From: Cephalotus follicularis | Lineage: Eukaryota; Streptophyta; Magnoliopsida; Oxalidales; Cephalotaceae | Assembly: GCA_001972305.1 (NCBI GenBank) | Contig: BDDD01003360.1 | Coordinates: 62,001 to 126,000, forward strand | Direction of reading: 5' to 3' | Length of the DNA: 64,000 nucleotides | Shown here: positions 1,364-63,942 of the stretch, one piece after another | How positions within the stretch are numbered: position 1 is the stretch's first letter | Layout of the letters: the number at the start of each line of letters is the position of its first letter | Made by a program: the position numbers and the translations under genes | The notes under the pieces: model-generated | Databases searched by the model: none | What the model saw: only the letters and a program-made list of their open reading frames with translations | What the model was told of the DNA's origin: nothing

Positions 1364-1589
1364 TGTAACTCCCGGGATTTTTACATAACGTAATGTTCTA
1401 ATCCTCGATGTAATTTCATGTGTGAAATTACTGGGAATGACGGAGTTCCCGACTTTGATGATGTTTTCCCTTTTATAATGTTGATTTTGGAAAGAGAAAG
1501 GATGGAATTTCTATTTGATTTGGTGGCAAATTGAGAAAGGAGTTACAAAGTGATTTTATTGAATTGAAGAATTGGAAATTTGGGCTTAA

Positions 1590-1666
1590 GTATCGACGCC
1601 TTAGCTATCAAAACACGCGTTTAAATTAATGTGTAAAACGTCGATGCAAGTGATAAGCGTCGACGC
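1590..1666. promoter_or_regulatory. GCGTCGACGC-type decamer cluster 1 in LTR K
   Basis: Copies or near copies of the palindrome GCGTCGACGC start at 1590, 1638 and 1657. They lie upstream of the presumed promoter near 1947. The function is unknown; see the findings on decamer arrays. Confidence 0.6.
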
Positions 1667-2585
1667 TTTGTGTTGAATCTCAGACACGTTTTAACAACAT
1701 ATAAAATGTGGCGATGGAGGCAGGTAAAAGGCATCCTACAGGCGCCTTGAGATACCAAATGAGACGTGTTGGGCATGCTGGCATGTTACCAGGCATGCAA
1801 AGGCCAGAGATGAGTGAAGGACATGACACCTGTGTGTGCATGTAAGTGGGGAAAGAAGGGCGAGGACACCTGGTGCGCCATGTAACCAGGTGTGAGGGAA
1901 TGAGATATCTGCCATTTATGTAGATGGAAACAAAGTTCCAACGGGCATAAAACACTCCTCTCTCATCATCCCTACAACTAGCTTGCTAGAGAGCAGAAAA
2001 CGAGAGAGATAATAGAGAGAGAAACCTCCATTGTTGAATCAACTTGGATCTTGGAATTTGGAGCTTGAAGTTTCTGCTGCTGGACAAAGATTGGAGCTGC
2101 TGTGACCGGATTTTGAAACCCAAAGAGGTGGACTTATAGATTCCTAACTTGAAATCAAAGGTAGGGAGAGGTTATAACTATAAATTTGTGTTCAATATTG
2201 GTGGTTGTTCAATGATGATATGCATGAGTTCCATGCCTCTTTTGGACTAAATTGGGCTGCTGGTTTGATACATTGATAAGTTGGATATGTAATATGTACG
2301 TGCATGGCGTTTCTGGGCTAGTACCAAACTGATTTGCATGCATGTTGAGCTTAATGCTGCTGGTTATGTGAGAAGGGAAAGATAAACAATTCTGAGTTCA
2401 TATGCATGTTTTGCATATTGATATGGTTGAATTGAAGTTGCAGATTGTTGTTATGGCTACTGTGATGTGTAAAATGATTATGCATGTGTCCCCTAAGTGG
2501 ATAATTGGACTGGAAATGTATGTATATTGGATTGTAGTTACTGGTTTTGTACTGACGCGAGGAAGAAGATGAAATGGGCATGTAA

Positions 2586-2757
2586 ACGTCGATGCTTTGG
2601 ACTATAGAATGCGTTATTATTACTGAATGCATATTAAACGTCAACGCCTAAGGAGTGAGCATCGATGCCTAAGGTACTGAAAAGCGCTGACGCTAAGTAT
2701 TGAGCGTTGACGCTTAGAGGACATAAGCGTCGATGCCCAAGGAGTAAACGTCGACGC
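2586..2757. promoter_or_regulatory. GCGTCGACGC-type decamer cluster 2 in LTR K
   Basis: Near copies start at 2586, 2638, 2659, 2684, 2704, 2727 and 2748, at intervals of 52, 21, 25, 20, 23 and 21 bases. The spacers do not share sequence. The cluster lies downstream of the donor-like site at 2161, that is, inside the hypothetical leader intron. Confidence 0.65.
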
Positions 2758-4141
2758 TTTAAAGGCATTGTTTGGACAAATTTCGCTTAAATGACGTACG
2801 ATGATCTCGATTTGATTTCAGATGCATTATAGCATATGGTTGCATTGCATTTGAACTGTTAAATTGACTGTGTATCGAACTGTTACTGATTTCTAAAATT
2901 GTTTCACTATTTTAGAAATACCCGCATGATTTTTAAATAAATCATTATTTCGTACGAGAATGTATATTTTACTAAATTTATATTTTCGAAATAACTGGGA
3001 AAGAATTTCCAAAGGTTGAAAACTGTTTTAAAATGATCGCTACATATTTTAAACAAATATGTGTTACAAGTATTTTATGAAGTATGATTTACTTGGAAAA
3101 TGGATCGTTATATATATTGACAAGTATATATGTTGCAAGTGTTTATAATTTATAAATTACTTGAGTGGATTATTGAATGTGTTTGCTATCGTTGCCGCTA
3201 GCGGGGTATCGGTGGTACTTAACCGCCGTGCTAGTATCGTAATAGTATCATTGCCGTTAGCGGGGTAGTGTTAATACTTAGCCGCCGTGCTAGTATGGTT
3301 AAATGAGTCCTGAGTGTTGTTACTTGCCACCGTGCTAGTAACGGGGACATTTCTTGTACTGAATGTATTGGGTTGTTGTACTGCCTATACTGTATTGTTG
3401 TCTTTTGTGACGTGCTACTTATACTGATTGGTCCTTGTGGACATTGCTATAGCTATGTTGATGTAGCCCTGGCCGGGTTGCAACTGTACTGTTGACATAC
3501 ATATATTTATTTATATATGTATTTACTGTTATACATACTGTACTACATCACTGTGCATTCATTACATGACATGGATTAATATTGATCCCGAATTGCACTT
3601 ATACTTAGTTGAGTGAGGATAAAGGCTAACCCCCTACTATTTCAGATTGATGCAGCGGGATAGCTATGGATACGCCTGGAGAAGATTCATAGTTGTAATA
3701 AATGTGACTGTGGAAATCGTATTTCCCGTTATGAATTTGATGAATTATTGTGGTAACCTAAGAACAATGTTATGGTATTAATGGGTAACGTCGTGTACTG
3801 AATTTTTTGCAGGAATGATGATGGCTTAATTCATGTTTTCACTGGATTAATGTTGGATGATGTTTAATGTACAAATGGTTTACGTATTTGATGTTTTTGA
3901 TGGATAAAGTTTTAATCATGCTCCGTTTTGTGGGCAGTTAACGATGAATGTTGTATTTTGATTAAGGTTGGGTAACATGTAGTATGGGATGCATGTTACG
4001 TTGAATTTTGGCTTATGTTTATATGCTTCCGCAATGTTTTTAACCGTTATGGAAAGTTTTAAATTTCCCGTATTTTGCATAGGCTGAATACTTGTGTTAA
4101 TTGCCGCGACCATGTATCGTCATGAAAAACGGGGTGTGAAA

Positions 4142-4460
4142 ACGGTTTTATCATGCAATAGGCTTGAAACTGTATTTCTCTTTATGCCTTAAGAAAAGTT
4201 TTATCCCGCAATAGGCTTGCACCTATATTTCGCTTCCTGCCGTGAGTACGGTTTTATCCCATGCTGGGCTTGTATCTTTATATCGTTGCGTGCTTTAAGT
4301 ACGGTTTTATCCCGTGACAAACTTGAACCTTTATTTCCCTTTGTGCCTTAAGTAGGGTTTTATCCTGCGATGGACTTCTCTCTTTTATTTCTCGCGATAG
4401 GCTTGCACCTTTATTTCGCTTCATGCCTTAAGTACGGTTTTATCCCACGACAGAATTATT
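4142..4460 (+). repeat. Tandem repeat, right part (GTACGGTTTTATCCC units)
   Basis: The phrase GTACGGTTTTATCCCGYGA recurs about every 55 bases, followed by GGCTTGCACCTTTATTTCGC and TTCATGCCTTA. This is a subtype of the repeat left of solo LTR K; the 36/46 alternation is not kept here. Together with 760-1363 it was one array before K inserted. Confidence 0.7.
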
Positions 4461-15864: not shown

Positions 15865-17014
15865 ACTGTCAGCTGTGACTGCGCGATTCACGGCGAGTCG
15901 CGGTTATCAATGTGTAGATCGTAATAAAAGTGTGATTGTTATTGCAGTGATACAAGGAGAGAAAGATAACTCCGTTGACACATGATGGAGTTGTGCTCGT
16001 GACAACGAGTGAAGCTTAGAGAAGGTGGCAGTTCGTGGATTCTGCTGCAAGTCCTCCCGACTCGCAAACTCAACCGTTAATAGGTAGGGTATACATTTAC
16101 TCCGATGGTACGTGCCAGATGAATATGGACTTGATCCCATTCGTATACACCGGTATGAGATGGTAGTATACGAATGGTAGCTCACTATAGTAGGTTATAC
16201 TTCTTGCATTGCATTCATGCTTTCTAAATGGTTATATGAATTGATAGGTGTACCAATTATAATTGTATAGATGCATGATTGTATATATATATATATATAT
16301 ATACGAGTATTCGGAATAGTATTGTTATGCAATGTTTCTATGCTACCTCATGCCCAAGAGGCTGGGGTATGTTTCTCTTCTACCTCGAGCCCAAGCGGCC
16401 GAGGATAACTCATATATGTCTTGGAATGATTTTCAAGGTTATGAATTGAAAGTGGTATGTGGTTAACTACTTATATATGCCGGTATGGGATGGTGTATAT
16501 ATCTAGCTAACCTCTTGATTGTTATTAGATGAATGGTATAGTTAAGGACCGACGTAGATATGGATCGTTATGGAATGGATCATACGATCATGGATGAATA
16601 TGATTACGGATGGCCATGGATATGATTACAGATGGCCATGAATATGATAATGGATGGACATGGATATGGTTACAGATGGCTATGACTATGGCTATGGTTA
16701 CAGATTACTATGGAAACGGGTTATGGATATGGAAATTAGCCTATGGCTACGGAAATGTTTTATGGATATGAAATATGACTTACGACTATGGAAATGATTA
16801 TAAATAGTTTGACGGATGTGGATCCATGAGATCCTTTACAAATGGTCCCTATTACTTAAAAGCATACATGATTTTGGGTCACAACTACGGGATGGATTAT
16901 TGATTGTACTGTATGAGGCTATAGAGATAACCCATTTCTAACTTTCATTTCCGTCATGAATGTTAGACCATAGTTTACACCACATTGTGATTGTGGACCA
17001 TACAAAAGAGCTTA

Positions 17015-17360
17015 CCCCACTATTGTGGGAGGACTGATACGATACGTGGATCCCACTATTGTGGGAGGACCGATATGATAGGTGGACCCCACTATTGTGG
17101 GAGGACCGATACGATATGTGGACCCACTATTATGGGAGGACCGATATGATACGTGGACCCCACTATTGTGGGAGGACCGATACGATACGTGGACCCCACT
17201 ATTGTGGGAGGACCGATACGATATTTGAACCCCACTATTGTGGGAGGACCGATTATAATCCGTGGACCCCACATGTTGGGAGGACCCATATACATTGCAT
17301 GGACCCCACATGTTGGGAGGACCCATATACATTGCATGGATCCCACATGTTGGGAGGACC
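17015..17360 (+). repeat. Tandem array of 36/37-base hairpin units in LTR I
   Basis: Ten units start at 17015, 17051, 17087, 17122, 17158, 17194, 17230, 17267, 17304 and 17341. The first seven carry CCCCACTATTGTGGGAGG, in which CCCAC and GTGGG pair around TATT. The last three carry CCCCACATGTTGGGAGG and are 37 bases long. Open frames of about 100 codons occur here on both strands only because the unit length is near a multiple of three. Confidence 0.93.
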
Positions 17361-18287
17361 CATACAAATCATGAAATAAACGACGTGGTCAATATTATCT
17401 CATTCCTTACTCCCCCACGACACCAAAAGTGCGTCGAGGGTGGGATGGACCCTATGGACTGATTGACCCTATGATCGATATGAATTGTTATATGGATTGT
17501 CAACAGGCCTATGGCCTTGACGTGATTAGGACTAGCTAAATATACCCCGCTTAGGGACGCCTGGTATATTGAAGCTGTCCACGATTATCATTTATACACA
17601 TGACATCACTTGGTATACTGATACACATATATGTATATTGTTCACCATATGACTTATGATTTCACTTGATGCATGCACAACACCTTACTACCCTGTGGCA
17701 TGCATGGCATATCTTTATATTGTTACATTATGGCATATAGTATGGTTTCGCCATACGGATCGTACGACTATGGGTTGTACGTTATGAATCGTACGGCTTT
17801 GGTTCGTTTGACTATGGATCGTACGATTATGGAACGGATACCAAATGGTTATGGTACGTCATGGGATGGATACAATATGGTTACGAATCGTGTCGTTACG
17901 TGTCGTAATGGCCGGATTGTGATGATATATGGATATGGAGGGTGGTTGTAGCTAGACCGACCAGGTTTAGAGAATATCCATCTTCTCTTCCCTGTTCTAC
18001 TTACGGATCCTACTCTAATCTGCCAGTGGAATAAGGGCTCCTGCCTAGGTCGCCAAGAGCGCCTAGTCTGTTACCTTGGCAGAGGAAGCCGAGAAGAGCT
18101 TGTATACGCTTGAAAGGATTTTGGAATGATATGGGCGCTGAATGATAAGGGCAAGTTTCTAAATGCTAGTTTTTATAGCATGGTTTATATTGATTGTTAT
18201 GCATACATCTCATATATACATATTGTACACATCCGCTGCACTTCTATATGTTCATTGCATATGTATATCCTACACAACCTTCGGGTT

Positions 18288-23882: not shown

Positions 23883-24026
23883 TGTAACACCCGGGATTTT
23901 CATTTAAGTGTAATATTGCTTTTCCAATGTAATTTTACACCTTGTGTTAATGAGAATCGTGTTTTCCCTCTTTCCTGTGTTGAAACGTTGCAAGAAAGTG
24001 TGTTGTTGTGTGTTTTTGTGCAGGGG

Positions 24027-24106
24027 CAGCCGACTGCCACAAGGAGGCAGCCGACTGGTGGGAGTGTCGGCAGAAACAGCCGACTGCCAAGCGAGGCAGT
24101 CGACTG
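24027..24106. promoter_or_regulatory. CAGTCGACTG-type decamer cluster 1 in LTR E
   Basis: Decamers start at 24027, 24048, 24077 and 24097 (intervals 21, 29, 20). They lie about 100-200 bases upstream of a TTAAAA/CT-rich stretch near 24207-24245 that may be the promoter and transcript start. Confidence 0.65.
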
Positions 24107-24625
24107 CCATGCGCCAGACAGCCCACGTGTTTTCTGCCTTAAATGAGAAATGGGAGAGTGTTTTGGCATTATTGCTTTTGGCAGAGGAGGGGTCGGGGGT
24201 TTTCTCCTTAAAACACAACATTTCTCTCCTCTCCCTCCATCTTTCTTTGTGATTCAAGAGAGTTTGAGAGTGAAAGTGTGTGTGTGTGTTGAGGCTTTGT
24301 GAAGTTTGTGTTGAAACCGAAAGTTTGGAGGCTTGGCAGTGGGATTTCGGGCTTGTTGAAGGTGGCTGATCGTGTTGGGGTTGTAAGAGCTTTGGATTTA
24401 AGCTTGAAGAGGTGGATTGCAACTCCTAACTTGGAGTTCTAAGGTAGGGGGAAGTCTCTTTTGCAACATAATTTCAATTGTAAATGTTTTTGATGAAATA
24501 AAATGCATGTTTATGTTATATTGTGAGTTTGGAACGTGTATGTGCATAAATATGTCATTTTGGGTTGTGTTGGGTGTGTGTTGGTGGCTGTTTTAGCAGC
24601 TGGTTTTTACACTTACTGCAGAATC

Positions 24626-24933
24626 CAATCGACTGCCCACCTCGGACAGTCGACTGCCAACGGGTCCAGCCGACTGTCTAGGGAGGCCAGTCGACTGCCC
24701 ACGTTCGTTTCCCAAAAATGTCTACAGAGGTAGTGTAGTTGACTGTCGTAGGTCGACAGTCGACTGCGGGGGTGTGGACAGCCGACTGTCGTGACGGCCA
24801 GCCGACTGTCGAGAGTGGGCAGCCGACTGTCTATGCAGACAGCCGACTGCCTGGTCATGTAGCCGACTGCCTGGGATTGGCAGCCGACTACTTTGAGGGG
24901 AACAGCCGACTGCCAGTGGTGGGCAGCTGACTG
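24626..24933. promoter_or_regulatory. CAGTCGACTG-type decamer cluster 2 in LTR E, 21-base phased
   Basis: Fourteen copies or near copies start at 24626, 24647, 24667, 24688, 24736, 24757, 24779, 24799, 24820, 24840, 24860, 24881, 24903 and 24924. Intervals are 21, 20, 21, 48, then 21, 22, 20, 21, 20, 20, 21, 22, 21. The 10-11 base spacers differ in sequence, so the motif and its spacing are kept but the spacer is not. Most copies are CAGCCGACTG or CAGTCGACTG. No other feature explains this layout. Confidence 0.85.
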
Positions 24934-25322
24934 TTGGGGGCCTGTTTTGCCCGTGAACATATGTATGCATCGTGTATTGTGATGTTTTGCTTCGTGAAGC
25001 TTTATAAACTGTTTATGCTATCGTGATCATTGAGTTTGAACTGTTATAACATATTTCTGGAAGTGCATTGTAGTTAATGAAAAATCAATACTTTATACGA
25101 AATTATATGTTTTGAGAAATATATATACTTTCGAACAGTGAAAATGACTTCCAAAAACACCGTGAACTGAGTTTTTTGATATCGAGAACCGTGAACCGTG
25201 ACATCGTGAAAATGAGTTTGTTTTCAGGTATTTTGTTTTATAAACTACTTGGAAAACTGTTTTGAGCATCGAGATGACTGTGATTGTGATTGAGCTTGAC
25301 TGTGATTGAGGACTAATGACAT

Positions 25323-25334
25323 CTTTCTTATAGG
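25323..25334 (+). promoter_or_regulatory. Splice-acceptor-like site ahead of gag in E
   Basis: TTTCTTATAG|GAACCT ends six bases before the gag ATG (25340). Element F has CCTTATAG|GAGACAGG at the same place relative to its gag ATG (36122/36120 on the minus strand). With the donor-like block in the LTR it could bound a leader intron. This is inference only. Confidence 0.4.
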
Positions 25335-25339
25335 AACCT

Positions 25340-28300
25340 ATGGACGGTCGTAGAAGGCGCGGAAGGCGTAGGCCTGTGAACGAGGATGTTCCTGAGGAAG
25401 TGAATACGGGTGGAGATCATAATGCTCCACCAGAGGCAGTGCCGAATGTTAGAGATCCTATGGACCGCATCGCTGACTATATCCAGCAGCAGATAGCTGC
25501 CAATCAGCAACAGATGGCCGCTAATGCAGCCAATATGGAGGAGATGCGGAGGATGTATGCTCAGGCTCAGCCGATGGCTCCAGCTCAGGGTGGACATGAT
25601 GATGGTAGCCGGTTTGGCAGAAACCTAGAGAAGTTTATGAGGCAGAACCCACCCAGTTTCAGGGGAGAGTTGGATGCTACCGTCGCTGAGAGATGGCTTC
25701 AGCACCTTGAGAAGATTTTCGAGGTGATGGAGTGTTCTGATAGGCAGAAATTGAGGTTTACCGTGTACCGGTTATGGGGAGAGGCCACTCACTGGTGGGA
25801 GATGGTCTGTGCTAAATGGGAGGATACTGGAGTTGTAGGCACCTGGGAGGGGTTCCAGGAGGAGTTTCTGGCAGCGTATGTGCCACGCGTTGAGCGTGAG
25901 CGGAGTGAGACGGAGTTCCTGGAGCTACGTCAGGGAGAGATGACCGTGGCTGAGTACCAGGCCAAGTTTGTTGAGCTCGCCAGACATTCAGCCTACTTGG
26001 TTGCAGATGTGGAGAAGAAGGTCCGGAGGTTCTTGAGGGGCTTGCGACCGGATCTTCGGTCACGGATCAGAGTGATGGAGCTTGGTACCTTTGTAGAGGT
26101 TACCCAGAAAGCAAGGTTGTTGGAAAGTGTGTTGAATGAGGACAGGGTCGAGAGGGCCCGAGCACAACAGAGCAGGCAGACACAGAGTCAGTCTAGACCG
26201 GCATCGTCCAAGTGGCAAGGCAGTGGTTCCCCGACGAAGTCCCTGAGGAACAGGAACCGGCAGACAGCTTCACAGGGTGCTCCTAGTCAGGGGAGTGATG
26301 CTAGGACTGGGGTTTGTTACCACTGTGGTCGTGCAGGTCATCAGCAGAAGGATTGTTGGCTGAAGAAAGGGTTATGTCTGAGGTGTGGCACAGCGGGACA
26401 TTCCGTGAGGGATTGCCCGAAGGGAGCAGCGACGGCACCTACTGGGCCAGCTGGTGGTAGTGCTTCCGCAGCAGGACCGTCACAGCGCAGAGATACTGGC
26501 AAGGGCATAGCGAAAGGTAGAGTTTTCGTTCTCACTCAGACAGAGGTTCCAGAGTCTACTTCTGTTGTGGGAGGTACTGTATATGTTTATGGTTTCACTG
26601 CTAGAGCTTTGATGGATTCAGGAGCATCACATTCTTTCATTGCTTCCCGTTTTGCATCATGTTTGGATGTGTCTCCTGTTTGTATGCCTTTTGTTCTTGA
26701 TGTGAGCACACCTTCTGGAGGTTCTATGTGTGCAGACTCGGTGTACCGAGGTTGTGAGCTTTCTGTTGCAGGTGTTGTGTTGTGTGCAGACTTGATCGTG
26801 CTACCCCTTTATGACTTTGATGTTATTTTGGGTATGGATTGGTTGTCAGCCTACCGTGCACAGTTGGACTGTTACAATAAGGTGGTGGATATTTGCTTGC
26901 TTGATGGGACTACCTTTCAGTTCCAGGGAGACAGAGGCTTCTCGATGCCGATTATATCTTTTATTCGTGCATCAAGGTATCTGGAAAAAGGGTGCGAAGG
27001 GTTCCTTGCGTATGTGGTTGAAACAAGGAAGGAGAAGGGCAAAAGTCTGGAGGAGGTTCCTGTTGTAAGTGAGTTCCCGGATGTATTTCCTCCAGATCTA
27101 GTGTCCTTACCACCGAGGAGAAGTATGGAGTTTGTGATCGATCTGGTCCCGGGTACGGCTCCTGTCTCTAAGGCGCCTTACTGTATGGCTCCTGCTGAGT
27201 TGCGAGAGTTGAAGTTACAGTTGCAAGACTTGATCGATAAGGGTTTTGTGCGACCCAGTGTTTCTCCTTGGGGTGCGCCCGTACTTTTTGTGAAGAAGAA
27301 GGATGGGTCGATGAGGCTTTGCATCGACTATAGGATGTTGAACAAGGTGACTATCAAAAACAAATATCCTCTTCCACACATCGAGGATCTTTTTGACCAG
27401 TTGCAAGGGTCGAGTGTGTTTTCTAAACTCGATTTGAAGTCGGGTTATCACCAGCTGAGGGTGAAGGAAGGAGACGTAGAGAAGACTGCTTTCCGAACGA
27501 GGTATGGTCACTATGAATTCTTGGTTATGCCTTTTGGTGTCACCAACGCACCAGCAGCGTTCATGTCCCTGATGAACGACGTGTTCTGACCGTTTTTGGA
27601 TCTGTTTGTGGTGGTGTTTATAGATGACATACTGGTGTTCTCAAGGAATGAGGAAGAGCATGTCTATAATCTGAGGCTAGTTTTGCAGACTCTCCGAGAG
27701 CATAAGTTGTATGCTAAGTTTAGTAAGTGCGAATTCTGGCTCGACCATGTGATCTTCTTGTGTCACATCGTGTCTGGAGTAGGTTTGGCGGTGGATCCGT
27801 CGAAGACAGAGGTGGTACGAGATTGGCCGCGTCCAAAAAATGTGACAGAGGTACGTAGTTTCCTTGGTTTGGCGGGATACTACCGGAGGTTCATCCAGAA
27901 CTTCTCGAGGATAGCAGTACCTTTGACAAGGCTGACTCAAAAGAAAACCTTGTTTGTTTGGGATGATGACTGTGAAACCAGTTTCTGTGATCTGAAGGAT
28001 CGGCTGATCTCCGCTCCTGTTCTGGCATTACCCGAGGGTAATGAGGGCTTTACGGTGTACAGTGATGCTTCGGGCAAGGGCCTGGGTTGCGAGTTGATGC
28101 AACGAGGCAGGGTGATCGCTTATGCTTCGCAGAAGCTGAAGCCATATGAGGAGAACTATCCGACTCATGATCTCGAGCTAGCATCTATCGTTTTTGCTCT
28201 TCAGAAATGGAGACACTACCTGTATGGAGCAGAGTGTGAGATTTTTACCGATCACAAGAGCCTGAGGTACTTATTCTGTCAGGATACACTGAATATGAGG

Positions 28301-29008
28301 CAGCGTCGTTGGGTAGAGTTCTTCAACGATTACGACTGCAGTATTCAGTACCATCCAGGGAAGGCAAATGTGGTTGCGGATGCTTTGAGCCGCAAGGCTA
28401 TGCTTGCTAGTATGATGGTGTCTCAGTGGAAGTTATTGGAGGACTTTCAGGAATGGTCTCCATTCAATCAGTCACCGGGGCTCATTTTAGCGGACATGCG
28501 AGTACAGCCCGAGTTACTACATCACATCAGAGATGCACAACCACATGATCCTGAATTGCAGCGGATTCGAGAGAATCTGGATTCGGAGCCTGATTTTAAA
28601 GTACACGAGGACGGTATTATGAGATATCGGGGGCGTGTATGTCTTCCGAATGAGCCTAGTGTGAAGGATGAGCTACTCCGAGGGGCTCATAAATCTATGT
28701 ACAGCATCCATCCTGGTAGTACCAAGATGTATCAAGACATGAAGAAGTGTTACTGGTGGCCTGGCATGAAACGAGAGATCGCCGAATATGTGGTGAAGTG
28801 TTATACTTGTCAGACAGTTAAGGCCGAGCACCAGAGACCGGCAGGTTTGCTGCAGCCCCTACCGATTCCAGAGTGGAAGTGGGAGCATGTGACGATGGAT
28901 TTTGTTTCGGGTTTTCCCTTGACTCGGAACCGCCACAATGCAGTGTGGGTAATTGTGGATCGACTCACGAAGTCAGCTCACTTTTTGCCTACTCATGTTT
29001 CTGACTGA
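25340..29008 (+). pseudogene. E: Ty3/gypsy gag-pol, one internal stop and truncated integrase
   Basis: A long frame encodes gag, protease, RT, RNase H and the start of integrase, the Ty3 order. Starting at ATG 25340: basic N-terminus, gag core, two CCHC knuckles ([14 protein letters not shown] at about residue 326 and [14 protein letters not shown] shortly after), an aspartic protease motif (DSGASHSF, about residue 428), then RT ([14 protein letters not shown]). The frame stops at TGA 27587-27589, where the related element F has an arginine codon. The same frame resumes without shift through the RT catalytic motif (FIDDILVFS), RNase H ([12 protein letters not shown]) and the HHCC integrase zinc region with the first core Asp (TMDFVSGFP). 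It ends at 29008, where the rest of integrase is missing and LTR tail sequence begins. Apart from the stop and the truncation it is well preserved. It is probably a Tekay-like chromovirus; the chromodomain end is absent, so that is inferred from B and F. Confidence 0.9.
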
Positions 29009-29106
29009 TGTCTGTTTAAAAGTTTTAAATTTTATCGTTCTCTGTATAAGCTGGATATCTGTTAAATTTCCATGTTGTATGTTGTTAATGCAAGCGGGGT
29101 ATGACA
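29009..29106 (+). mobile_element. E: last 98 bases of the 3' LTR
   Basis: Ends GGGGTATGACA, one base from the family's GGGGTGTGACA, and is followed by target duplicate GTATC (29107-29111). The rest of the 3' LTR, the PPT and the integrase end are deleted. Confidence 0.75.
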
Positions 29107-29210: not shown

Positions 29211-30361
29211 TGTCACACCCCGTTTCTCATAAACAACATTTAAGTGGTAGCAATTAACATAATATCCGGCTTATTCTTTTTCGATAAATTTTAACTTTTC
29301 AAACAGTTATAACAAAGGAGGAACCATTCGATAATAAGCCGAATTAAAACGCAACACGCATCCCATACCACGTGTTGCCAACAACATAAATAAACCATTT
29401 GTCGAAAGCCCTCAAACGGAGTGTGAATTAAAACATTCAGTATGGTATCTGATCATTTACAGATGACCATCAAAATACTTTATCCCAGTAATACAGTTAT
29501 CCAAATAAATTAATCCGTCACAATAACTAGAAATCCATCGGTTACAACAACATAACACAATAACAGTTTAGCAATTCAAATAAGTGTTACAATGCCACCA
29601 GCTAACATTATTACAATTATGCTTCTCCACGAGCGTCCATATAGGTCCCACTGCATCAATCTGAAATGTAGGGGGTTAGCCTTTGTCGTCACTCGGCTAA
29701 GTAGAGAAGTTATAAATGCAATTCGGGGTCAATAATAATGAAGTCAGGTATGAATGCACAATGATGCAGTACACAGTATATAACAGTACATATACATATA
29801 TAATATGTATATTTATCAGTATAACCAAACATGTCCTCAAGTGGACCACTCAAACACAATCAGTACAAACAATGTCCACGTTACTTGCACGGCGGTGGTA
29901 ACAATGGTCCGGACACGGTAAACAGTAATAGTATGGCGGCTAGGTACCAACAGTAACCCGCTAACGGCAACAGTGGATACGATACTGAGCAAGGTGGCTA
30001 AGTAGCAACAATACCCCGCTAGTGGCAACAGTAACAATCACTTTCAATAGTCAACTCAAGTGATGCATAATTATAAACACTTGAAACAGTAATATCAATG
30101 TATAGCCATCTCTTGAACAGTTCATAATATTTGGAGGTTACTTCCCCCGTCATTTTGAAAATATATATATTTTTTCGTACAAAATAATGATTTGTCTGGA
30201 AATCATATATAAACTTCTAAAATGATAAACATTTTAGAAAACAATCACAATTCGGTTAACAGTACAATATATAATGCAAACATATGCTCAGAATGCGTCC
30301 AAGATCGTTAGCGTCGTGCCTATGTTTACCACCTTTTCCAAGGTACGATTATTCCCTGTAA

Positions 30362-30610
30362 CAGTCGGCTCTTTCCTTTAACAGTCGGCTGTTCCCTTGA
30401 GCAGTCGGTTGTTTTCCTCTAACAGTCGACTGTTGTGGGCGAGTAACACATGACCAGTCAGCTGTTTTTCCTCAACAGTCGACTGCCTCCACAAACAGTG
30501 TTCTCTTTCTACCATTTCTAGGTAACTAACGCATGCACAGTCGGCTGTCTTCTCTCGACAGTCGGCTATGAACCTTAAGCAGTCGACTGTTCCCCTTGAA
30601 CAGTTGGCTG
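30362..30610. promoter_or_regulatory. CAGTCGGCTG-type decamer cluster 2 in F 3' LTR
   Basis: Decamers start at 30362, 30382, 30402, 30423, 30455, 30476, 30538, 30559, 30580 and 30601. Intervals are 20, 20, 21, 32, 21, 62, 21, 21, 21, so even the gaps are near three and six helical turns. The cluster lies downstream of the donor-like site in the direction of transcription. Confidence 0.82.
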
Positions 30611-31328
30611 TTCTGTAGACCAGGAACATGCAATTTGTCCAATTTACATCCAATCAGTTAATTGAATATCATTCAACCATATTCGTTCAATAGAATATCA
30701 ACAATAGTCCATAGAGCACAATCACAGTTCATGCATTTTCTCTATTTCATCTTATCATCAGTAAATCCGACTTAGTAATGCATGCAAATAAACCAATTCT
30801 CAATCTATAACTCAGTACACTTATTATGTTAACAGTTCACTGTGAGCATGATATTTAGCCAGAGAGTTCACAATCCATTAACCAGGCATTGCATTAATGA
30901 TCACCATTACTATTAAACTCAAAGTTACACATATAACTTTCCACAATTTCCCCCTACCTTTGATTTCAAGTTAGAAATCAGAAGTCCACCTCTTTGTGTT
31001 CCAACAGTGACGTTTTGAGCACCCCAGAAGCTTCAGCTCCAATCCAGTAGCTCCAACCCATGACTTCCAAGCTTTCCTTCTTGGCCCAAATGTTGGGCAA
31101 AGTCCTTCTTCCTCCTTTCTTTTCTCAATCTCTCATTGTGTTTCCTCTTTGTTCAAATGCTGGGTGAGAGAGGCGAATGGGAGAGTGTTCTTCTGCCATT
31201 TCTTTCCCTTATCCTGTTGCATGGCACTAAATGCACTTGCATTTATTAGGCCTCTGATAGTGCCTGAAAGATGCCCTTGTTAGTTGTTGCATGTGATCTC
31301 ATCACATGCAACAAAACAGAGTACAAAC

Positions 31329-31457
31329 CAGTCGGCTGTCTTCTTGGCTATGGTTGCCAGGTGGCTCGACAGCCCACCAGTTGGCTGGTTCGTCCAACCA
31401 GTCGACTGCTTCATTAAACAGTCCACCAGTCGGCTGGTCTATAATACCAGTCGACTG
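31329..31457. promoter_or_regulatory. CAGTCGGCTG-type decamer cluster 1 in F 3' LTR
   Basis: Decamers start at 31329, 31378, 31399, 31427 and 31448, with a partial copy at 31419. They lie upstream of the likely promoter and CT-rich leader (about 31080-31200 on the minus strand). Confidence 0.65.
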
Positions 31458-31611
31458 CCCCAGTCCATATTTCAACAATTATACTTCTAAGTACTTTAAT
31501 TTGATCTAGAAATCACCATATTAACCGGAAAATTCATCTTTCTCATTAATTCAATAACAAGATTACATTGGAATTCAAATATCACAATATGCGAAAATTT
31601 CGGGTGTTACA

Positions 31612-36219: not shown

Positions 36220-37375
36220 TGTCACACCCCGTTTCTCATAAACAACATTTAAGTGGTAGCAATTAACATAATATCTGGCTTATTCTTTTCCGATAAATTT
36301 TAACTTTTCAAACAGTTATAACAAAGGCAGAAGCATTCAATAATAAGCCAAATTAAAACGCAACACGCATCCCATACCACGTGTTGCCAACAACATAAAT
36401 AAACCATTTGTCAAAAGCCCTCAAACGGAGCGTGAATTAAAACATTCAGTACGGTATCTGATCATAAACAGATGACCATCAAAATACATTATCCAAGTAA
36501 TACAGTTATCCAAATAAATTAATCCGTCACAATACTCGGAAATCCATCGGTTACAACAACATAACACAATAACAGTTTAGCAATTCCAATAAGAGTTACA
36601 ACTCCACCAGCTAACATTATTACAATTATGCTTCTCCACGCGTGTCCATATAGGTCCCACTGCATCAATCTGAAATGTAGGGGGTTAGCATTTGTCCTCA
36701 CTCAGCTAAGTAGAGAAGTAATAAATGCAGTTTGGGGTCAATAATAATGAAGTCATGTATGAATGCACAATGATGCAGTACACAGTATATAACAGTACAT
36801 ATACATATATAATATGTATATTTATCAGTATAATCAAACATGTCCTCAAGTGAACCACTCAAACACAATCAGTACAAACAATGTCCACGTTACTTGCACG
36901 GCGGCGGTAACAATGGTCCAGACACGGTAAACGGTACTAGTATGGCGGCTAGGTACCAACAGTACCCCTCTAACGGCAACAGTGGTTACGATACTCAGCA
37001 CGGTGGCTAAGTAGCAACAATAGCCCGCTAGTGGCAACAGTAACAATCACATTCAACAGTCAACTCAAGTGATGCATAATTATAAACACTTGAAACAGTA
37101 ATTTCGATGTATAGCCATCTCTTGAACAGTTCAACGTATTTAAAGGTTACTTCCCCCGTCATTTTGAAAAAATATATATATTTTCGTACAAAATAATGAT
37201 TTGTTTGGAAATCATATATAAACTTCTAAAATGATAAACATTTTAGAAAACAGTCACAATTCGGTTAACAGTACAATATATAATGCAAACATATGCTCAG
37301 AATGCGTCTAAGATCATTGGCGTCGCGCCTATGTTTGCCACATTTTCTAAGGTACGATTATTCCTTGTAACAGTC
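36220..37375 (-). mobile_element. F: 5' LTR, segment 1
   Basis: Starts (plus strand) TGTCACACCCCGTTTC as does the other LTR at 29211 and stays closely similar until CAGTC (37371-37375), where solo LTR G begins. Confidence 0.92.
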
Positions 37376-37547
37376 TGTAATAACCGTAATTTCAAATAGT
37401 GTATATTGCTCCAATTTTAAATAAAATATACATTTTACTTGGGATTATTTGTCCAGTTATCACAATAATTACGATTAGTGAATGCTTGGGATGGTTTGAA
37501 ATACAAATTTGTAAAATAAATGTAAGGAACCCTAAAACCAGCTCAAA

Positions 37548-37627
37548 CAGCCGACTGTCACAGGGTAACAGTCGACTGGTTGATTCGTGGAAGAGACAGT
37601 CGACTGTCACTGGAAGACAGTCGACTG
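37548..37627. promoter_or_regulatory. CAGTCGACTG-type decamer cluster 1 in LTR G
   Basis: Decamers start at 37548, 37569, 37597 and 37618 (intervals 21, 28, 21), upstream of the TATA-like stretch near 37894. Confidence 0.7.
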
Positions 37628-38681
37628 GAGTGACATAGAACAGGCGTCTGGCATGCGCAGAGACAGTGATGACAAGTGTTCTAATCGTGGCATGCATGAG
37701 GGATGCGTGTCACCAGCTTCCATAACATGCAAGAGGAGTGCCTTGCATGTCCTCTATTCCTTCTGCAATATTTGCAGACCTGCAACTTGCAAAAACAGAA
37801 GAGAATGAGTGAGGAGAGGTGCATGTGAGAGAGAGAAGGAAAAGAGGGAAGGTAGAGTTAATGGGATCCTAACGAATTCTAAGACTCTAAGCCTTTATAT
37901 CAGCTGTGAAGAACTGATTCGGGTGATAGAAAACACTAAGGAGAAGGAATTGAAGGAGAGAAAGATTTTCTCGGAGCTTGCATGTTAGAGTGTGCAAGGA
38001 GAGTGAAGCTTGATTCTCCTGGTAAGTCACTAATCCGAATTCCTTAATGTTGTTATGGTTAATAGCTAGGAAAAACAGACTTGGATCAGATATCCATATC
38101 TTCTGTTAACATGATTAAGAGTTAGTAAGTTTGAATTGAAATGGAATTGGTAAATGGTTCAAAAAAGAGTTGAAATTATAAGCCTCTAATTCGAATCATA
38201 GCTGCTGTTATGGTTGTCAATAGGTACGTGTACACTAATCACCATCTATACATACCTTCTGTAACATGCAAACATGGTAATTGCTGAAATTGGAATTGAA
38301 TAGTGGAGAAAAGTTGTTTAATAATGTGAAAGAGAGGCTTAATGGAATTGTGATAAGCTACTATTTGGGTAGTATATTGTGACTGGATAATTAGTTAAAC
38401 TTACTAATTTAATGACTGAACCTTCGAGCATGCATTGTACAGATCGATTCTGCTGAGGTTGAAAGGTTAAGTTGGTGGAAAGAGCTTTGGACATTAAAGA
38501 GAGAAATCAATCCAAATTGATTTCGGGATAGTGTTTAAGGTAGGGGTAATGACATGTTTTTGAAGATATAATATGCATATCATGTATGGTTAACTTTTTG
38601 TTTGATTGCATGTGTTGATTGGGTTAGCATTTGGACATTGAAATGCATACCATGCTACTGCCTGCTCACTTCTGGGCAAAG

Positions 38682-38793
38682 CAGTCGACTGTTCTTCATG
38701 ACAGTCGACTACTCAAACAAACCAGTCGGCTGTTAAGAACAAACAGTCGACTACTCAACCAAATAGCCGACTGTTCTTGGAAACAGCCGACTG
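38682..38793. promoter_or_regulatory. CAGTCGACTG-type decamer cluster 2 in LTR G
   Basis: Decamers start at 38682, 38702, 38723, 38744, 38764 and 38784 (intervals 20, 21, 21, 20, 20), just downstream of the AAG|GTAGGG donor-like site at 38540. Confidence 0.8.
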
Positions 38794-40080
38794 TTCTGGG
38801 TTAAAATTCTGATGCAGGCTCTGATTAGGCCTTAAATTGAATGTAATTAACCTGGCCCCCATATGGGATGACCGTAATAGTCAATCCTGGCCTTATATAA
38901 TTACATTTCTGAATTTAAATAATGTATATACCCCTTGTGAGAATTTTACAAGAAGGACTAGGGTATACAATGACCATATTGAACCCTTGGATTGCTACTG
39001 TGCTTACTGTTTTGCTGTATATGTTACTGTTATAATTAATATATATTGTTTTGGGTGTTCATTAACACTACTGTCCCTTATTTCAAATGATTGAACCAAT
39101 TAGTGCTTTAAGCACAAATATGAGTTCCTTACGATTTTCAAAATGGAAATGTATATTGTCAAATGATTACTGTTACCCTCCAATGTGAGGTACTGTTACT
39201 GTACTAAATATCGTTTTCCTCCTAGGAGATGTACGATTACTGAATTGTTAAATGTTTCAAAAGAAAACAACCCTATATTACATTTTAAAAAAACTTATGT
39301 AATATTACTGAATTGATTGTTTATGCTATTGCCGTTAGTCGAGTGATAGGAGACATCACTGGCTACGGAGGTGGTCCTATGTGCCAGGAGTTGGCTAGAG
39401 TACCCACCCAAACTGTCTGCAATGCATATCTTGATTGTTAAACTGCCCGCTAATGCCGGTAGTAACTGACCTGATCTATCATCTTCATAGTGAAGGGTGA
39501 TAGATAGGTGGTGCACAGTTGGTGCTGGGAGTTAGCGACATGTGACACCCAAACCACTATATTGATTGATTGTACCCTTGTGCGGTATTCTTGCATTGTG
39601 ATGTCTATGGCCACTTGGCATGATTGCGTATATATTGGAATACTATATATATATGTCATTTCATTTAAATTGTCATACATATTGCATTTATATATTCAAT
39701 TATCATGCGTTATTTTTTTCCTACTTAGCCAAGTGAGGACAACGGCTAACCCCCTACAATTTCATATTAAGCAAGGGCGTTCTGAAAGTGCTACTGAAGC
39801 TTGGAGAGTTTTCACCTGCTAAGGTTGTTATTTTTATGTTGTATTGTATTTGTAATGACCAGTTTGCACTCCGTTGTTTTTTTACCTTTCCTTATGTATA
39901 AGGATAATTTGATGGATTGTATACGCACGTAGTATGGGCTGCGTGCGGATGACTTTTAATCTAGTTTTAAATGCTTCCGCTTATATTTTTGAATTGTTAA
40001 TTGGAATGCTGGATTATTTTTACTTATTCCTGATATCACCACATATGTTGTCTAATGTAATGGAATAATGGGGTGTGACA

Positions 40081-40918
40081 CAGTCGGCTGTTTCCTTTAA
40101 CAGTCGGTTGTTCCCTTGAGTAGTCGGCTGTTTTTCTCCAACAGTCGGCTGTTGTGGGCGAGTAAAACATGAGCAGTCGGCTGTTTTTCCTCAACAGTCG
40201 ACTGCCTCCATGAACAGTGTTCTCTTCCTACCATTTCTAGGTAACTAACGCATGCACAGTCGACTGTCTTCTCTCGACAGTCAGCTGTGAACCTTAAGCA
40301 GTCGACTGTTCTCCCTAAACAGTCGGTTGTTCTGTAGATCAGGAACATGCAATTTGTCCAATTTACATCCAATCAATTAATTGAATATCATTCAACCATA
40401 TTCGTTCAATAGAATATCAACAATAGTCCATAGAGCACAATCACAGTTCATGCATTTTTTCTATTTCATCTTATCATCAGTAAATCCGACTTAGTAATGC
40501 ATGCAAATAAACCTATTCTCAATCTATAACTCAGAACACTTATTATGTTAACAGTTCACAGTGAGCATGATATTTAGCCAGAGCGTTCACAATCCATTAA
40601 CCAGGCATTGCATTAATGATCACCATTACTATTAAACTCAAAGTTACACATATAACTTTCCACAATTTCCCCCTACCTTTGATTTCAAGTTAGAAATAGG
40701 AAGTCCACCTCTTTGTGTTCCAACAGTGACGTTTTGAGCTCCCCAGAAGCTTCAACTCCAATCCAGTAGCTCCAACCCGTCACTTCCAAGCTTTCCTTCT
40801 TGGCCCAAATGTTGGGCAAAGTCCTTCTTGCTCCTTTCTTCTCTTAATCTCTCACTGTGTTTCCTCTTTGTTCAGATGCTGGGTGAGAGAGGCGAATGGG
40901 AGAGTGTTTTTATGCCAT
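40081..40918 (-). mobile_element. F: 5' LTR, segment 2, truncated
   Basis: Resumes after solo LTR G and matches 30362-31200 of F's other LTR, including the decamers at 40081, 40101, 40121, 40142, 40174, 40195, 40257, 40278, 40299 and 40320 with the same 32- and 62-base gaps. It stops at 40918: the last 411 bases present in the other LTR (31201-31611, carrying cluster 1 and the LTR start) are missing. Confidence 0.87.
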
Positions 40919-45732: not shown

Positions 45733-46032
45733 TGTAAGAGCCCTAAATATTTTAAAATATTATTATTGGGCCTTGTAATTATTTTTCCACATTTTGGGTT
45801 GGACCCGAATTTATGACGTAATTATTTGGGCCTTAATGAGGATATAAATTGAATTATGGGCTTAAGAATTATTTTTATTACCTGGGCCGAATTTATTAAG
45901 CATGAGAGTATTGGGCTTAAAACTCAAAGAAGAAAGACCATTTGTGAGTGTGAGGCAGCCCAAGCCCAAAGCCCAAAAAAAAAGGATTTGCTGTGTACAT
46001 TCATGAGAATTCTAGAGCATTCTGCGGGGGAG

Positions 46033-46039
46033 TATATAA
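46033..46039 (+). promoter_or_regulatory. TATA box of LTR B (5' copy)
   Basis: GAGTATATAAGGAC, a canonical TATA box; the identical site in the 3' LTR is at 49930. A transcript start about 30 bases on would lie near 46065, giving a first exon of about 275 bases to the CAG|GTAGGT site. Confidence 0.7.
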
Positions 46040-46341
46040 GGACAAAGAGTGGCTGTGAATGGGGGCTTTAGCATTTTACACCCACTCGTGCTGGAAGAAT
46101 CGAGAGAGTGAAGAAAGAGGAGAGTGGGGACCTGCTGTTTGGAAAAAGGAGGAAGAAGCCAAGAAGAAGGGTCCCTGCACACATATATATATTTGCTGAA
46201 GGAGTGTGCCATCTCCTGGGGAGGAAGGAAATAAAGCAAGTGTAAGAGAAGAGACAACTTGGAGTGTGATAGCCCTTGGCAAGGAAGGAAGTCCAAGGAT
46301 TAGAGAGAAAGAAGACCATCTCCGTTTCCAACCCACACCAG

Positions 46342-46347
46342 GTAGGT
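46342..46347 (+). promoter_or_regulatory. Splice-donor-like site in LTR B
   Basis: CACCAG|GTAGGTTGC, very close to the plant 5' splice consensus; repeated at 50239 in the 3' LTR. It is equivalent in position to the AAG|GTAGGG blocks of K, E, F, G, J and I. Because B's leader and gag are deleted, no acceptor can be checked. Confidence 0.45.
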
Positions 46348-47906
46348 TGCTCTATGCCGAGTGCCTACCAGCATGTTTATATATGTAATTATTTTGTGTG
46401 TTTACTGCTTGTTGTTGATTGTGTGTCCTCTGCTTGCTATTTTGGTTGCTGCTATTGAGTCATGGATTGTTAAGTTGTTATATATGCTTATATTATAAAT
46501 TGTAACGAGAAAACGAAGAGGTAGAATACAAGGCTTTCTCCTCTGCCAATTTGCATTATGCTCCCCTATGCATGCAACAATGAGCCTTGTACGTGGATGC
46601 CTTCCTCTACCATTTCGTGCACCCCTGTCACATAACGGGTGTACCTGTGAGGGACACTACATGCAGAGGAGTGGTGGGTGTTGAGCTTTACTGGTCATGC
46701 TCCTCTACCACCACCCGAAGCTCATTACCAACATCAGAGATTATGAGCCTCTGCCCTTGTGCAACGAACCACTGGGAATCACCCGAGGAACCAATAACGT
46801 GCGTCCGAGGTGCCACCACCCGAGCACACATGCAGTGGCGCACGCCATGTGCCATGTCCGAGAGTGAAGCAGAGGACCCATCAGCCAAGTGCAGAGGACA
46901 CCACTCCTGTGCATGCACCTTAGCATGCCGTGAAGTGCCCCTGTTTCCCTACCAGGACTGCCCGAGCTCCTCTGCCGCTATCGGGGAGCCATGTGCTGAG
47001 GTGAAAAGAGGCCCAGGGATGTGGGGAAGAGACGCCGAGGTGCCAAGTGCAGAGGACACCTTGCCCTCATGCGCATACCCGGTTCTATGAATGCTTGCAG
47101 ACGCAAGTGCAGAGGACGCCATTGTCCTCTGCATGCATCCCATTCCCTGCAAGACCACGGGTTCATGCTTGTGGAACCAAAGCACCGAGGTGACCCGCCG
47201 AGGTGTCACCGGCTGAGCCCAGGAGCCGAGGACTCGAGATGCTGAGAACACCATGCGCAGAGGACGTCCTTGTCCTCTGCCATGTGTAGCGCTCTCTGCC
47301 ATGACGCCAGAGATGAGCCAGTACGTTTCCGAAGACGCTGCCGAGGACGCATTAGTCCCAGGCGTCCGAGGAAGCCAGTCCATGCGTCCCACGCATGGAA
47401 CAGCGCCCGAGCTCCCCACGAAGGCGCCTTGCACTCTTCTCTGCTCTGCCCGAGGTTGCGCCATAACAGGGCGCCATGATCGACCTATACCCACGAAGCT
47501 TATCCACTGCTATAGCGCCACACTTCCGAGGACCAAGTGCAGAGGTGATTCTCGTCCACTGTCGCATGCCTTAAAGCGCTGCATCAAGCGCCATGGTCCA
47601 GGGATGAAGAAAGACGAAGGTGTGTTTGGCGCCAGAATTTAAATATCATGCCTGCATGCAACCAAAGAGAAAGAGAAATTTAAGATTGAAGACCCGAACG
47701 GTGCGTTTAGCACCATACGCATGCATTGCGTTTTACCGTTGTCCTAATGGCGTTTTTAATTAGGCATTAAAGAATGATTTCAAATGTTAAAGGAAAAGAA
47801 GGAATTTTGAATGTTAAAGAAGAGAATGAGTAAAGAAAGTTTAAGTGTAATAGCAGGCTGGTGAGCCCAACGGGGGAGAAGTCCGCCGAGCTGGTGAACC
47901 TACGGG

Positions 47907-51749: not shown

Positions 51750-51985
51750 GCAGGCTGGTGAGCCCAACGGGGGAGAAGTCCGCCGAGCTGGTGAACCTAC
51801 GGGGTGAACTCCGCGAGGCAGGTGATCCTCGGGCGAATCCGCCAATGGTGAACCTAAGGGTGAATTCCGCCAAGGCTGGTGATCCGAGGGGTGAACCGCG
51901 AGCAGGTGAGCGAAGGGCGAACCGCTCGGCAGGTGAACCGGAGGAGAATTCCACAGGCTGGTGATCCCAAAGGTGAACCATGTAT
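51750..51985 (+). repeat. GCTGGTGAACC..GGTGAACTCCGC tandem region in B 3' LTR
   Basis: Eight degenerate units of about 27-33 bases begin near 51753, 51786, 51817, 51845, 51874, 51901, 51928 and 51955. Each has GGTGA(A/T)CC or similar followed by GG(G/T)GAA..CCGC. The 5' LTR holds only the first three units (47855-47952) before its truncation. Confidence 0.8.
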
Positions 51986-59970: not shown

Positions 59971-60553
59971 TGTCACACCCCGTTTTCCAAGAAGACAACA
60001 TTAAAGCGGTAAAGCAATCAACCAACATAATTCAGCTTATGCTATTTTACGTATAAACAAAACTTTTAATAGCGGAAGCAATAACATGAAATAAGCTGAA
60101 TTTAAATATGTATCATGCATCCCATACTACGTGATACCCAAAATGTTTATATAAAAACCCAACATCATTGTCGATCTCCCATAAACGGAGCGTGATAATA
60201 CAGTACGAAATGAAATAAACCACGGTATCCATCAATACATGACAAATATAAAATCCACGTTACAATAATCCAAATAACAAATCATTGTTCGTTAATCCAG
60301 ATAACATAATCATAAAGAAACAATTCAGTCTTCTCCTTATATTTGGCAAATATACATTTTCGTACAATTAATGATTATAATAATCATGCAAGGTTTTCAA
60401 AATGGTTAACACTTTTTAGCAATCAACCACAATTCAATTCACAATTCAGTAACAATGCAAACATATGCTCAGAATGCATCTAGGATCGTTTCTAGAGTTG
60501 TTTCGGGTCTAACGGGTCCCATTTGAGTAAAACCTTTTCAAATAGGGGAATAA

Positions 60554-60975
60554 GCATCGACGCTTATCCCCTGGGCGTCGACGTCTTTACCCTAAGGCAC
60601 CAGCGTTTCGTGTAGTTATTCCCAGGCGTTTTAGGACCAAAGACATCGATGCTTTTCCAAAGACGCCGATGTCTTTATGATACCTGGAGGTATCAGTTCG
60701 CAAATCTTGATTCCAGGTGGAAGAATCCGACCCTTAAACCTTCACACAAACAATATCATCCTCTTATCGTGTAAGGTGTGCTACTGGTTATCAAAATACG
60801 TAACCAAATATCAATTCATGAACAAGTCAGGAAAACAAAAGCAGGCATTTCACCGTCCACAACAAACACTAAGGTTCTGCAATTTTCCAGAAAAGGCGTC
60901 GATGTTCTACCAAAACATCGACGTCTGTCGTTTTCACACACGAAGGCATCGACGTCTTTATGTAGGCATCGACGC
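60554..60975. promoter_or_regulatory. GCGTCGACGC-type decamer cluster 2 in LTR J
   Basis: Copies start at 60554, 60575, 60643, 60663, 60896, 60915, 60946 and 60966. Close intervals are 21, 20, 19, 31 and 20. In the LTR's own direction they lie after the donor-like site at 61215. Confidence 0.7.
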
Positions 60976-63928: not shown

Positions 63929-63942
63929 ATCTCCCCCTTTTT
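63929..63942 (-). other. Polypurine tract of N
   Basis: The reverse complement reads AAAAAGGGGGAGAT directly before the LTR start. The last 58 bases of the window are N's internal region, too short to show a domain. Confidence 0.88.

Follow-up and report, generated by a model that had tools for sequence, protein, structure and literature searches.

What keeps a run of short, near-palindromic DNA words at a nearly even pitch inside an LTR, when the bases between them differ? This question is raised by a retrotransposon in a 64,000-nucleotide stretch of the Cephalotus follicularis genome (hereafter the window), for which the first-pass annotation had listed fourteen decamers and thirteen steps. 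Every position and every step proved exact: the decamers start at 24626, 24647, 24667, 24688, 24736, 24757, 24779, 24799, 24820, 24840, 24860, 24881, 24903 and 24924, and follow one another at start-to-start steps of 21, 20, 21, 48, 21, 22, 20, 21, 20, 20, 21, 22 and 21 bases.

The decamer and the elements that carry it

The window contains 83 matches to CAGTCGACTG with at most two mismatches, compared to 17.7 ± 4.5 in shuffled sequence, and 83 was reached in none of 100 shuffles. A motif-blind control placed GTCGAC at the top of the 64 palindromic hexamers for pairs 20-22 bases apart (7, with 0.0 expected); 42 copies of this hexamer are present in the window where 6.5 are expected. Furthermore, a motif-blind scan for chains (at least three links of 19-23 bases) of any near-palindromic decamer returned nine chains, eight made of this motif and one of a second class, RCGTCGACGY. 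All 68 sites that match CAGYCGACTG with at most one mismatch lie inside eight arrays, which cover 1737 of 64000 bases and whose bounds were taken from the CAGTCGACTG matches with at most two mismatches themselves; none lies elsewhere in the window. A scan of viral contigs for the array gave one contig with one pair, which we took as chance.

The elements and arrays of the CAGYCGACTG class (class 1) are, in window coordinates:

23883-29106, forward: E1, the Ty3/gypsy retrotransposon bearing the reported array; ends TGTAACACCC...GGGTATGACA, flanked at either end by the 5-bp target duplication GTATC
24027-24106, forward: E1 array A, 4 motifs, steps 21-29-20
24444-25333, forward: intron-like stretch around E1 array B; donor-like AAG/GTAGGGG at 24443/24444, acceptor-like CTTATAG/GA before the gag ATG at 25340
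24626-24933, forward: E1 array B, the reported array, 14 motifs
29212-31611, reverse: left (3') LTR of E2, Ty3/gypsy; LTR pair 94.5-94.9% identical, PPT-like run, start TGTAACACCC
31329-31457, reverse: E2 array A, 5 motifs, steps 21-28-21-49; present in the left LTR, the right one being truncated ahead of it
30362-30610, reverse: E2 array B of the left LTR, 10 motifs
40081-40329, reverse: E2 array B of the right (5') LTR, 10 motifs, with F inserted at its edge
37376-40080, forward: solo LTR F, target duplication CAGTC, inserted in the E2 array
37548-37650, forward: F array A, 5 motifs, steps 21-28-21-23
38682-38793, forward: F array B, 6 motifs, 3' of the donor-like block (GGTAGGGG at 38539)
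62655-63931, reverse: Sirevirus-like (Ty1/copia) LTR, adjoining the PPT GGGGGAGATTGTTGG; a polyC signal lies close to the LTR end
63258-63763, reverse: copia LTR array, 18 motifs, 43 bases ahead of CTATAA at 63214

E1 encodes the Pfam domains Retrotrans_gag, RVP_2, RVT_1, RNase H and Integrase_H2C2. A single LTR-like region was found in it, before gag; neither a second LTR nor a PBS ahead of gag was found. With target duplications at its outer ends and no second LTR, E1 looks internally deleted, and its gag-to-RT frame is open for 749 codons. The earlier statement that the array lies inside an LTR therefore holds by way of the relatives of E1: array B is assigned to the LTR because it is present in both E2 LTRs and in the solo LTR F. 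The PBS of E2 is TGGTATCAGAGC. E2 is probably a chromovirus, a label given because of its chromodomain-like tail (Chromo E=4.5e-4, 20.5 bits, under the Pfam cut-off of 25.1), and it may be of the Tekay type. The copia LTR is labelled Sirevirus-like by its PPT, polyC signal and TATA only, since pol lies outside the window. Among the 71 protein matches listed from 8000 scored candidates, the closest came from Actinidia eriantha, at 44% identity along 87% of the query length, and the named ones were mostly from flowering plants.

F, itself a carrier of arrays, has landed within one of the E2 decamers (CAGTC at 37371-37375 and 40081-40085). Plant LTR retrotransposons have a weak palindrome preference at insertion, which is not significant for Tekay (PMC6911290), and this single case proves nothing.

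Over E1, the left LTR of E2, F and the copia LTR (18, 15, 11 and 18 motifs, respectively, with at most two mismatches) the decamer consensus is CAGYCGACTG. These are near-palindromes rather than the palindromes of their first description: 21 of the 62 motifs are perfect, as are 3 of 14 in E1 array B, where the commonest form, CAGCCGACTG (6/14), is not palindromic. The departure from symmetry has a direction, since on the sense strand C stands at position 4 in 31 of 58 motifs and G at the mirror position 7 in one (C4:G7 of 12:0 in E1, 10:0 in the left LTR of E2, 3:1 in F and 6:0 in the copia LTR). A strictly symmetric dimer site is disfavoured by this 31:1 asymmetry, although tandem ancestry could also yield it; descent in tandem from a C4 unit, followed by CCG deamination, is an equally good cause.

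E1, E2 and F have one layout in common, in which array A near the LTR start is followed by a leader, a donor-like block with AAGGTAGGGG at its end, and array B. The donor-like block is present in five LTR families: E1, E2, F and two further LTRs, G and H (described below), taking the form GGTAGGGA in H. In addition, each strand of the window has a single CTTATAGGA, at 25327 (forward) and 36127 (reverse), both times right ahead of a gag start. From the donor-like block before array B and CTTATAGGA just ahead of gag we infer that array B probably lies inside a 5' intron. A possible 5' intron of E2, from 30958 to about 36120 on the reverse strand, would remove U5 and the PBS from the gag mRNA. 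A TATA-like site lies 3' of array A in E1 (weak, at 24208), G and H, and at the corresponding place in the right LTR of E2, which has lost array A. No TATA-like site follows array A in the left LTR of E2, and F has a single one, 526 bases from array A.

Spacing, spacers and the fate of the motifs

To describe the pitch, we took motifs with at most one mismatch in E1, the left LTR of E2, F, G, H and the copia LTR, counting orthologous steps per family and leaving out the right LTR of E2. This gave 68 steps shorter than 100 bases, 49 of them within 15-25 bases. These short steps average 20.57 bases (sd 0.83), 42 of the 49 being 20 or 21 bases long, and the 19 longer steps are unphased at 10.5 bases (Rayleigh p 0.17). 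Array A has a step signature of 21-29-20 in E1 and 21-28-21 in both E2 and F, so that each of the three class-1 gypsy families has a step of 28-29 bases, about 2.7 turns. The proposal that the decamers face one side of the helix across the array finds no support in these longer steps, and we dropped helical phasing of all sites. Because the longer steps are unphased and 28 bases is a non-integral number of turns, the pitch is better read as the packing of neighbouring proteins than as one face.

Conservation drops sharply at the decamer edges in each of four LTRs (E1, the left LTR of E2, F and the copia LTR). When the units of one LTR are compared in pairs, the mean identity at a position is 0.86-0.89 within the decamer, a value biased upwards, with further-decayed sites dropped, because sites were chosen by similarity, and 0.32-0.37 in the next ten bases. 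(Sites were found by decamer similarity throughout, with at most one mismatch for the step, E2-pair, CG/CHG and 68-site counts, and at most two for spacer similarity, position identity, palindrome and core counts and folding controls.) Array A gives the clearest contrast. Between the orthologous arrays of E1, E2 and F the motifs are identical at 36/40, 38/40 and 36/40 positions and the first three steps are equal within 1 base, whereas the homologous spacers share 66 identities against 65.9 ± 3.5 in shuffles, 285 of 500 of which were at or above the observed value.

Array B is less clear-cut. Spacer similarity between its E2 and F copies is 0.44 against 0.29 shuffled, and between LTRs in general it exceeded shuffles in 11 of 12 one-sided tests on six LTR pairs (uncorrected p <0.05), for example 0.39 between E2 and F (shuffled 0.28) and 0.35 between E1 and the copia array (shuffled 0.26). 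The exception was one side of F against the copia array (p 0.19). Class-1 spacers of 19-23-base steps also have a positional bias, with mostly purines 5' of the decamer and two pyrimidines 3'. The site may thus span 14 rather than 10 bases, or some units, chiefly in array B of E2 and F, may be of common descent. The first-pass annotation had called the spacers unlike each other, which is right in that they fall far below the motifs, and too strong in that they stand somewhat above shuffled spacers. Its view that only motif and spacing are kept is borne out by array A across three families and must be relaxed for array B.

These data bear on the simplest alternative, a functionless, decayed minisatellite of 20-21 bp whose core is over-represented by chance or biased repair. 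The units do run head to tail, TRF calls parts of the arrays tandem repeats, and the spacer bias is shared within and between arrays, most strongly between array B of E2 and of F. A minisatellite would decay evenly over its whole unit; apart from the partial similarity of array B spacers, conservation here is restricted to the decamer, and between families array A has spacers at chance and motifs 90-95% identical. A plain decayed minisatellite fits poorly because array A keeps motif and spacing without spacer sequence, and we consider this account unlikely. As the main account, we reject a neutral minisatellite on the contrast of motif and spacer in array A, despite the spacer similarity in array B.

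The two LTRs of E2 record what happens to the motifs after insertion. They differ at 11 of 100 motif bases, 10 of 149 array spacer bases and 87 of 1744 bases in the rest of the LTR (motif vs rest, p = 0.018; motif vs spacer, p = 0.25). All but one of the 11 changes in motifs are transitions at CG or CHG, and the rate per CG/CHG cytosine is alike in motifs (10/62) and the rest of the LTR (29/196). Since motifs decay in the E2 pair at least as fast as their surroundings, neutrality would not maintain them, and since they are unprotected in a dead copy, they are kept only across the active lineage, and any selection can act only among active copies. This is as expected of a role in the transcription of live copies.

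The same cytosines raise the possibility of methylation-dependent recruitment, in which methyl-DNA-binding proteins would read decamers dense in symmetric CG and CHG. In the E1 LTR region the motifs make up 11.7% of the length and hold 43 of 79 CHG and 16 of 50 CG sites; in the copia LTR they make up 12.5% and hold 36 of 68 CHG and 15 of 35 CG sites, and the predominance of CG/CHG transitions among the E2-pair motif differences points the same way. Yet the class-2 motifs are nearly without CHG (1/52 in G, 0/78 in H), and the E2-pair rates per cytosine are no different outside motifs and inside them. We regard this explanation as highly improbable.

The arrays might instead act as RNA or single-strand hairpins, with self-complementary decamers pairing in the transcript and feeding small RNAs or serving packaging. 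Palindrome regions of maize Sireviruses are small-RNA hotspots (PMC5311732, PMC10760457), and three arrays here are more stable when folded than their dinucleotide-shuffled controls (z -4.83, -2.45 and -3.96). With motifs kept and spacers shuffled, controls as stable as the native array numbered 1/60 for array B of E1 (z -1.90), 8/60 for array B of E2 (z -1.03) and 12/60 for array B of F (z -1.00), and for the copia array the outcome was reversed, 60/60 spacer shuffles folding better (z +2.19). When motif variants were permuted among slots, energies at or below the native one were reached in 20/60 (E1), 35/60 (E2) and 17/60 (F) permutations of array B and in 60/60 of the copia array. In addition, C4 variants come without a compensating G7 (31 vs 1). 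Folding therefore mostly follows from the self-complementary motifs, and the reported array alone shows a borderline extra. Selection for hairpins, which the first-pass annotation had named as an alternative, gets little support from either kind of control, and we hold it to be decidedly unlikely; the arrays may be a source of small RNAs as a by-product.

A putative host-factor array and its likeness to Sirevirus repeats

We therefore return to binding by a protein, which the first-pass annotation had proposed and which remains the best-fitting kind of cause given that array A keeps motif and spacing with spacers at chance. The reading we favour, and think rather probable, is that the decamers are selected sites for a sequence-specific protein that binds double-stranded DNA, most likely a host transcription factor, and that they form a regulatory array driving retrotransposon transcription. 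The motif, its spacing and the common layout are observed directly; binding and activation are what we infer from them. Array A would act as an upstream (U3) enhancer, and array B, behind the leader and probably within the 5' intron, as an intronic enhancer. About 20.6 bases would be the packing distance between adjacent bound proteins, the intervening sequence being largely free, and the reader would act on the double-stranded DNA of live copies. Taken together, and for one 64-kb window, the arrays appear to be real, probably selected regulatory arrays of several families. Some points count against this picture. The motifs of the E2 pair are unprotected after insertion, enhancers are not usually placed as array B is, 3' of the leader, a TATA-like site after array A is clear in only part of the LTRs, and with the shared spacer bias whole units may be of common descent.

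Within the reading as a regulatory array, the most specific candidate reader is a DREB/CBF-type AP2/ERF factor, a tentative assignment that we make with low confidence. An array of DREB/CBF sites ahead of a promoter would make an element cold- or drought-responsive. The candidate is named because the core that the motifs conserve, GYCGAC, agrees with CBFHV (RYCGAC): in the four LTRs (E1, left LTR of E2, F, copia LTR), 52 of 62 motifs read RYCGAC on the sense strand, and 25 of 62 read GCCGAC, the DRE/CRT core. The corresponding PLACE sites are CBFHV, RYCGAC, and DRECRTCOREAT, RCCGAC (PMC4482647), whereas PMC10670769 contains no CBF site letters. The arrays share such a core with the CRT/DRE sites of CBF/DREB factors (PMC4482647), but unlike those sites they are regular and their 10-bp near-palindrome exceeds the CRT/DRE core; CBF/DREB is a candidate binder. 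RYCGAC is short and is contained in any GTCGAC palindrome, and the outer CA..TG is about equally strict and unexplained by a CBF site.

The closest described counterpart is the RM of Sireviruses, high-copy short motifs of dyad symmetry, clustered in the LTR 5' of the TATA with diverged flanks (Bousios et al. 2010, PMC2829016). Sirevirus palindromes matched chiefly stress-factor sites in PLACE, and the RM was called Sirevirus-specific and absent from classic retrotransposons (PMC2829016). The RM of the Vitis Sirevirus, CGGTCGACCG, has the GTCGAC core found here (Table 3, PMC2829016), and the layout of the RM fits the copia LTR of the window, whose cluster lies in the upper LTR half, 43 bases before CTATAA. 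The gypsy LTRs are mixed in this respect, with array B downstream; such a second array, 3' of the leader, sets the elements here apart from the RM, as does their class (PMC2829016). E1, with Ty3-type gag, RVP_2, RT and RNase H, and E2, with its chromodomain-like tail, are not Sireviruses. As to copy number, where the RM is defined by at least eight palindromic copies, the four LTRs have 18, 15, 11 and 18, about a third of them (21/62) perfect palindromes. The CGG-CCG signature of the RM is missing from CAGTCGACTG and from the consensus CAGYCGACTG, and the Tnd-1 RM lacks it too (PMC2829016). A fixed pitch of 20-21 bases is a feature of the arrays here and goes unmentioned for the RM in the portion of PMC2829016 on which we draw. 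RM clusters are said to define CpG islands (PMC2829016); here a simple window measure showed none at the arrays, the 300-base windows of highest CpG observed/expected lying apart from the arrays in 6 LTRs. Thus E1 is not a carrier of a Sirevirus RM, yet by analogy its arrays look like RM and probably work like them.

In maize, palindrome arrays in the LTR regulatory regions of Sireviruses are small-RNA hotspots (Bousios et al. 2016, cited in PMC5311732, PMC10760457). The position in LTR regulatory regions is shared with the arrays here, and the maize palindrome, CACCGGACNNNGTCCGGTG, is longer (PMC10760457); selection on structure gets little support from our folding controls. One maize palindrome is common to Copia elements and Helitrons, a precedent for sharing by unrelated elements (PMC10760457).

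A search for the exact decamer in the literature gave no title on a plant LTR among the matches listed, and none of the titles listed concerned arrays of such palindromes in Ty3/gypsy LTRs. The literature search likewise returned no paper on LTR palindromes with GTCGAC, nor on an LTR with CCGAC and DREB. Going by the titles listed and by the statement in PMC2829016, the arrays have not been described before in gypsy LTRs, so that palindromic arrays described as a Sirevirus feature (PMC2829016) are now found in Ty3/gypsy LTRs. A motif common to gypsy and Sirevirus-like LTRs of one genome, recurring in the copia LTR at the same fixed pitch, points to a common host factor, and the decamer array is a concrete probe with which to find it. 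This would make testable how plant retrotransposons switch on and why regulatory words turn over between sister families.

Two palindrome classes and possible exchange between families

Two LTRs carry the second palindrome class:

59971-62056, reverse: solo LTR G, target duplication ATCAG; 13 motifs of the RCGTCGACGY class, seen as RCRTCGAYGY; array A at 61739-61863 and array B at 60554-60975
1364-4139, forward: LTR H, palindrome RCGTCGACGY, 9 motifs; array A at 1590-1666 and array B at 2586-2757

No target duplication was seen at the LTR flanks of H. Both being solo or single LTRs, G and H owe their gypsy label to LTR similarity. Layout, TGTAAC start, parts of the LTR sequence and donor-like block are like those of class 1, whereas the palindrome differs: the core GTCGAC is common to both classes and the flanks are not (CA..TG vs RC..GY). 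We read the RCRTCGAYGY motifs of G (13) and H (9) as decayed RCGTCGACGY.

In the donor region, the backbone of E2 is identical to H at 60/77 positions and to F at 49/90; in U5 the values are 512/811 for H (shuffled, about 443) and 440/893 for F (shuffled, about 441). H is also somewhat closer over the last 180 LTR bases (131/188, compared to 129/211 for F), and the two are alike over the first 60 (42/63 and 40/67, the segments of E1, E2 and H starting two bases inside the LTR). With a backbone nearer H and a palindrome as in F, E2 indicates that the palindrome does not simply track the backbone. The first three class-2 motifs of H (1590-1666) and G (61789-61863) follow at steps of 48-19 and 47-18, and the third and fourth motifs of class-1 array A lie at about +49 and +70; the array A slots of the two classes are possibly orthologous and filled by different palindromes.

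A speculative and rather doubtful extension of the regulatory reading is a shared array code. A Ty3/gypsy chromovirus and a Ty1/copia Sirevirus would use one near-palindrome at a pitch of 20-21 bases, sister LTRs would swap the flanks around a fixed GTCGAC, and a single family of factors would read the arrays as exchangeable modules. If this is true, palindrome switching would be a means of gaining host activators or escaping host repressors.

The switch could also have another meaning. By analogy with VANC, a protein encoded or captured by the element could bind the arrays and remove silent chromatin, a change of palindrome then being a change of address. In VANDAL elements the targets of VANC are short, tandem, noncoding motifs, different ones in related elements (Hosaka et al. 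2017, PMC5735166), and an unrelated element has VANC6 motifs too (PMC5735166, PMC10398659). Here, likewise, the motif differs between sister LTRs and is common to an unrelated superfamily, and the backbone of E2 matches H, with the other palindrome, better than F, with the same one. VANDAL elements, however, are DNA transposons with their own binding protein, and the VANC motif is not described as palindromic, the word being absent from the main text (PMC5735166). Our search of uninterrupted ORFs of at least 150 aa at 22-42 kb gave six, of which five are gag-pol pieces and one is an other-strand overlap of the E1 LTR; none is of the VANC kind, though such a protein might come from a smaller, spliced or broken gene or act in trans. 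We know of no VANC-like protein in LTR retrotransposons. This anti-silencing role is very unlikely in our estimate, and we keep to a regulatory array read by a host factor.

Other repeats in the window include two direct repeats of 2.2 kb (45733-47951 and 49630-51848), 99.1% identical, 1.7 kb apart and without CAGYCGACTG arrays, perhaps a young element with a short body. Tandem repeats lie at 756-1322, 4142-4365 and 17014-17364, with units of about 82, 53 and 36-37 bp, respectively. LTR H is situated between the first two of these, whose units have the words ACGGTTTTATCC in common.
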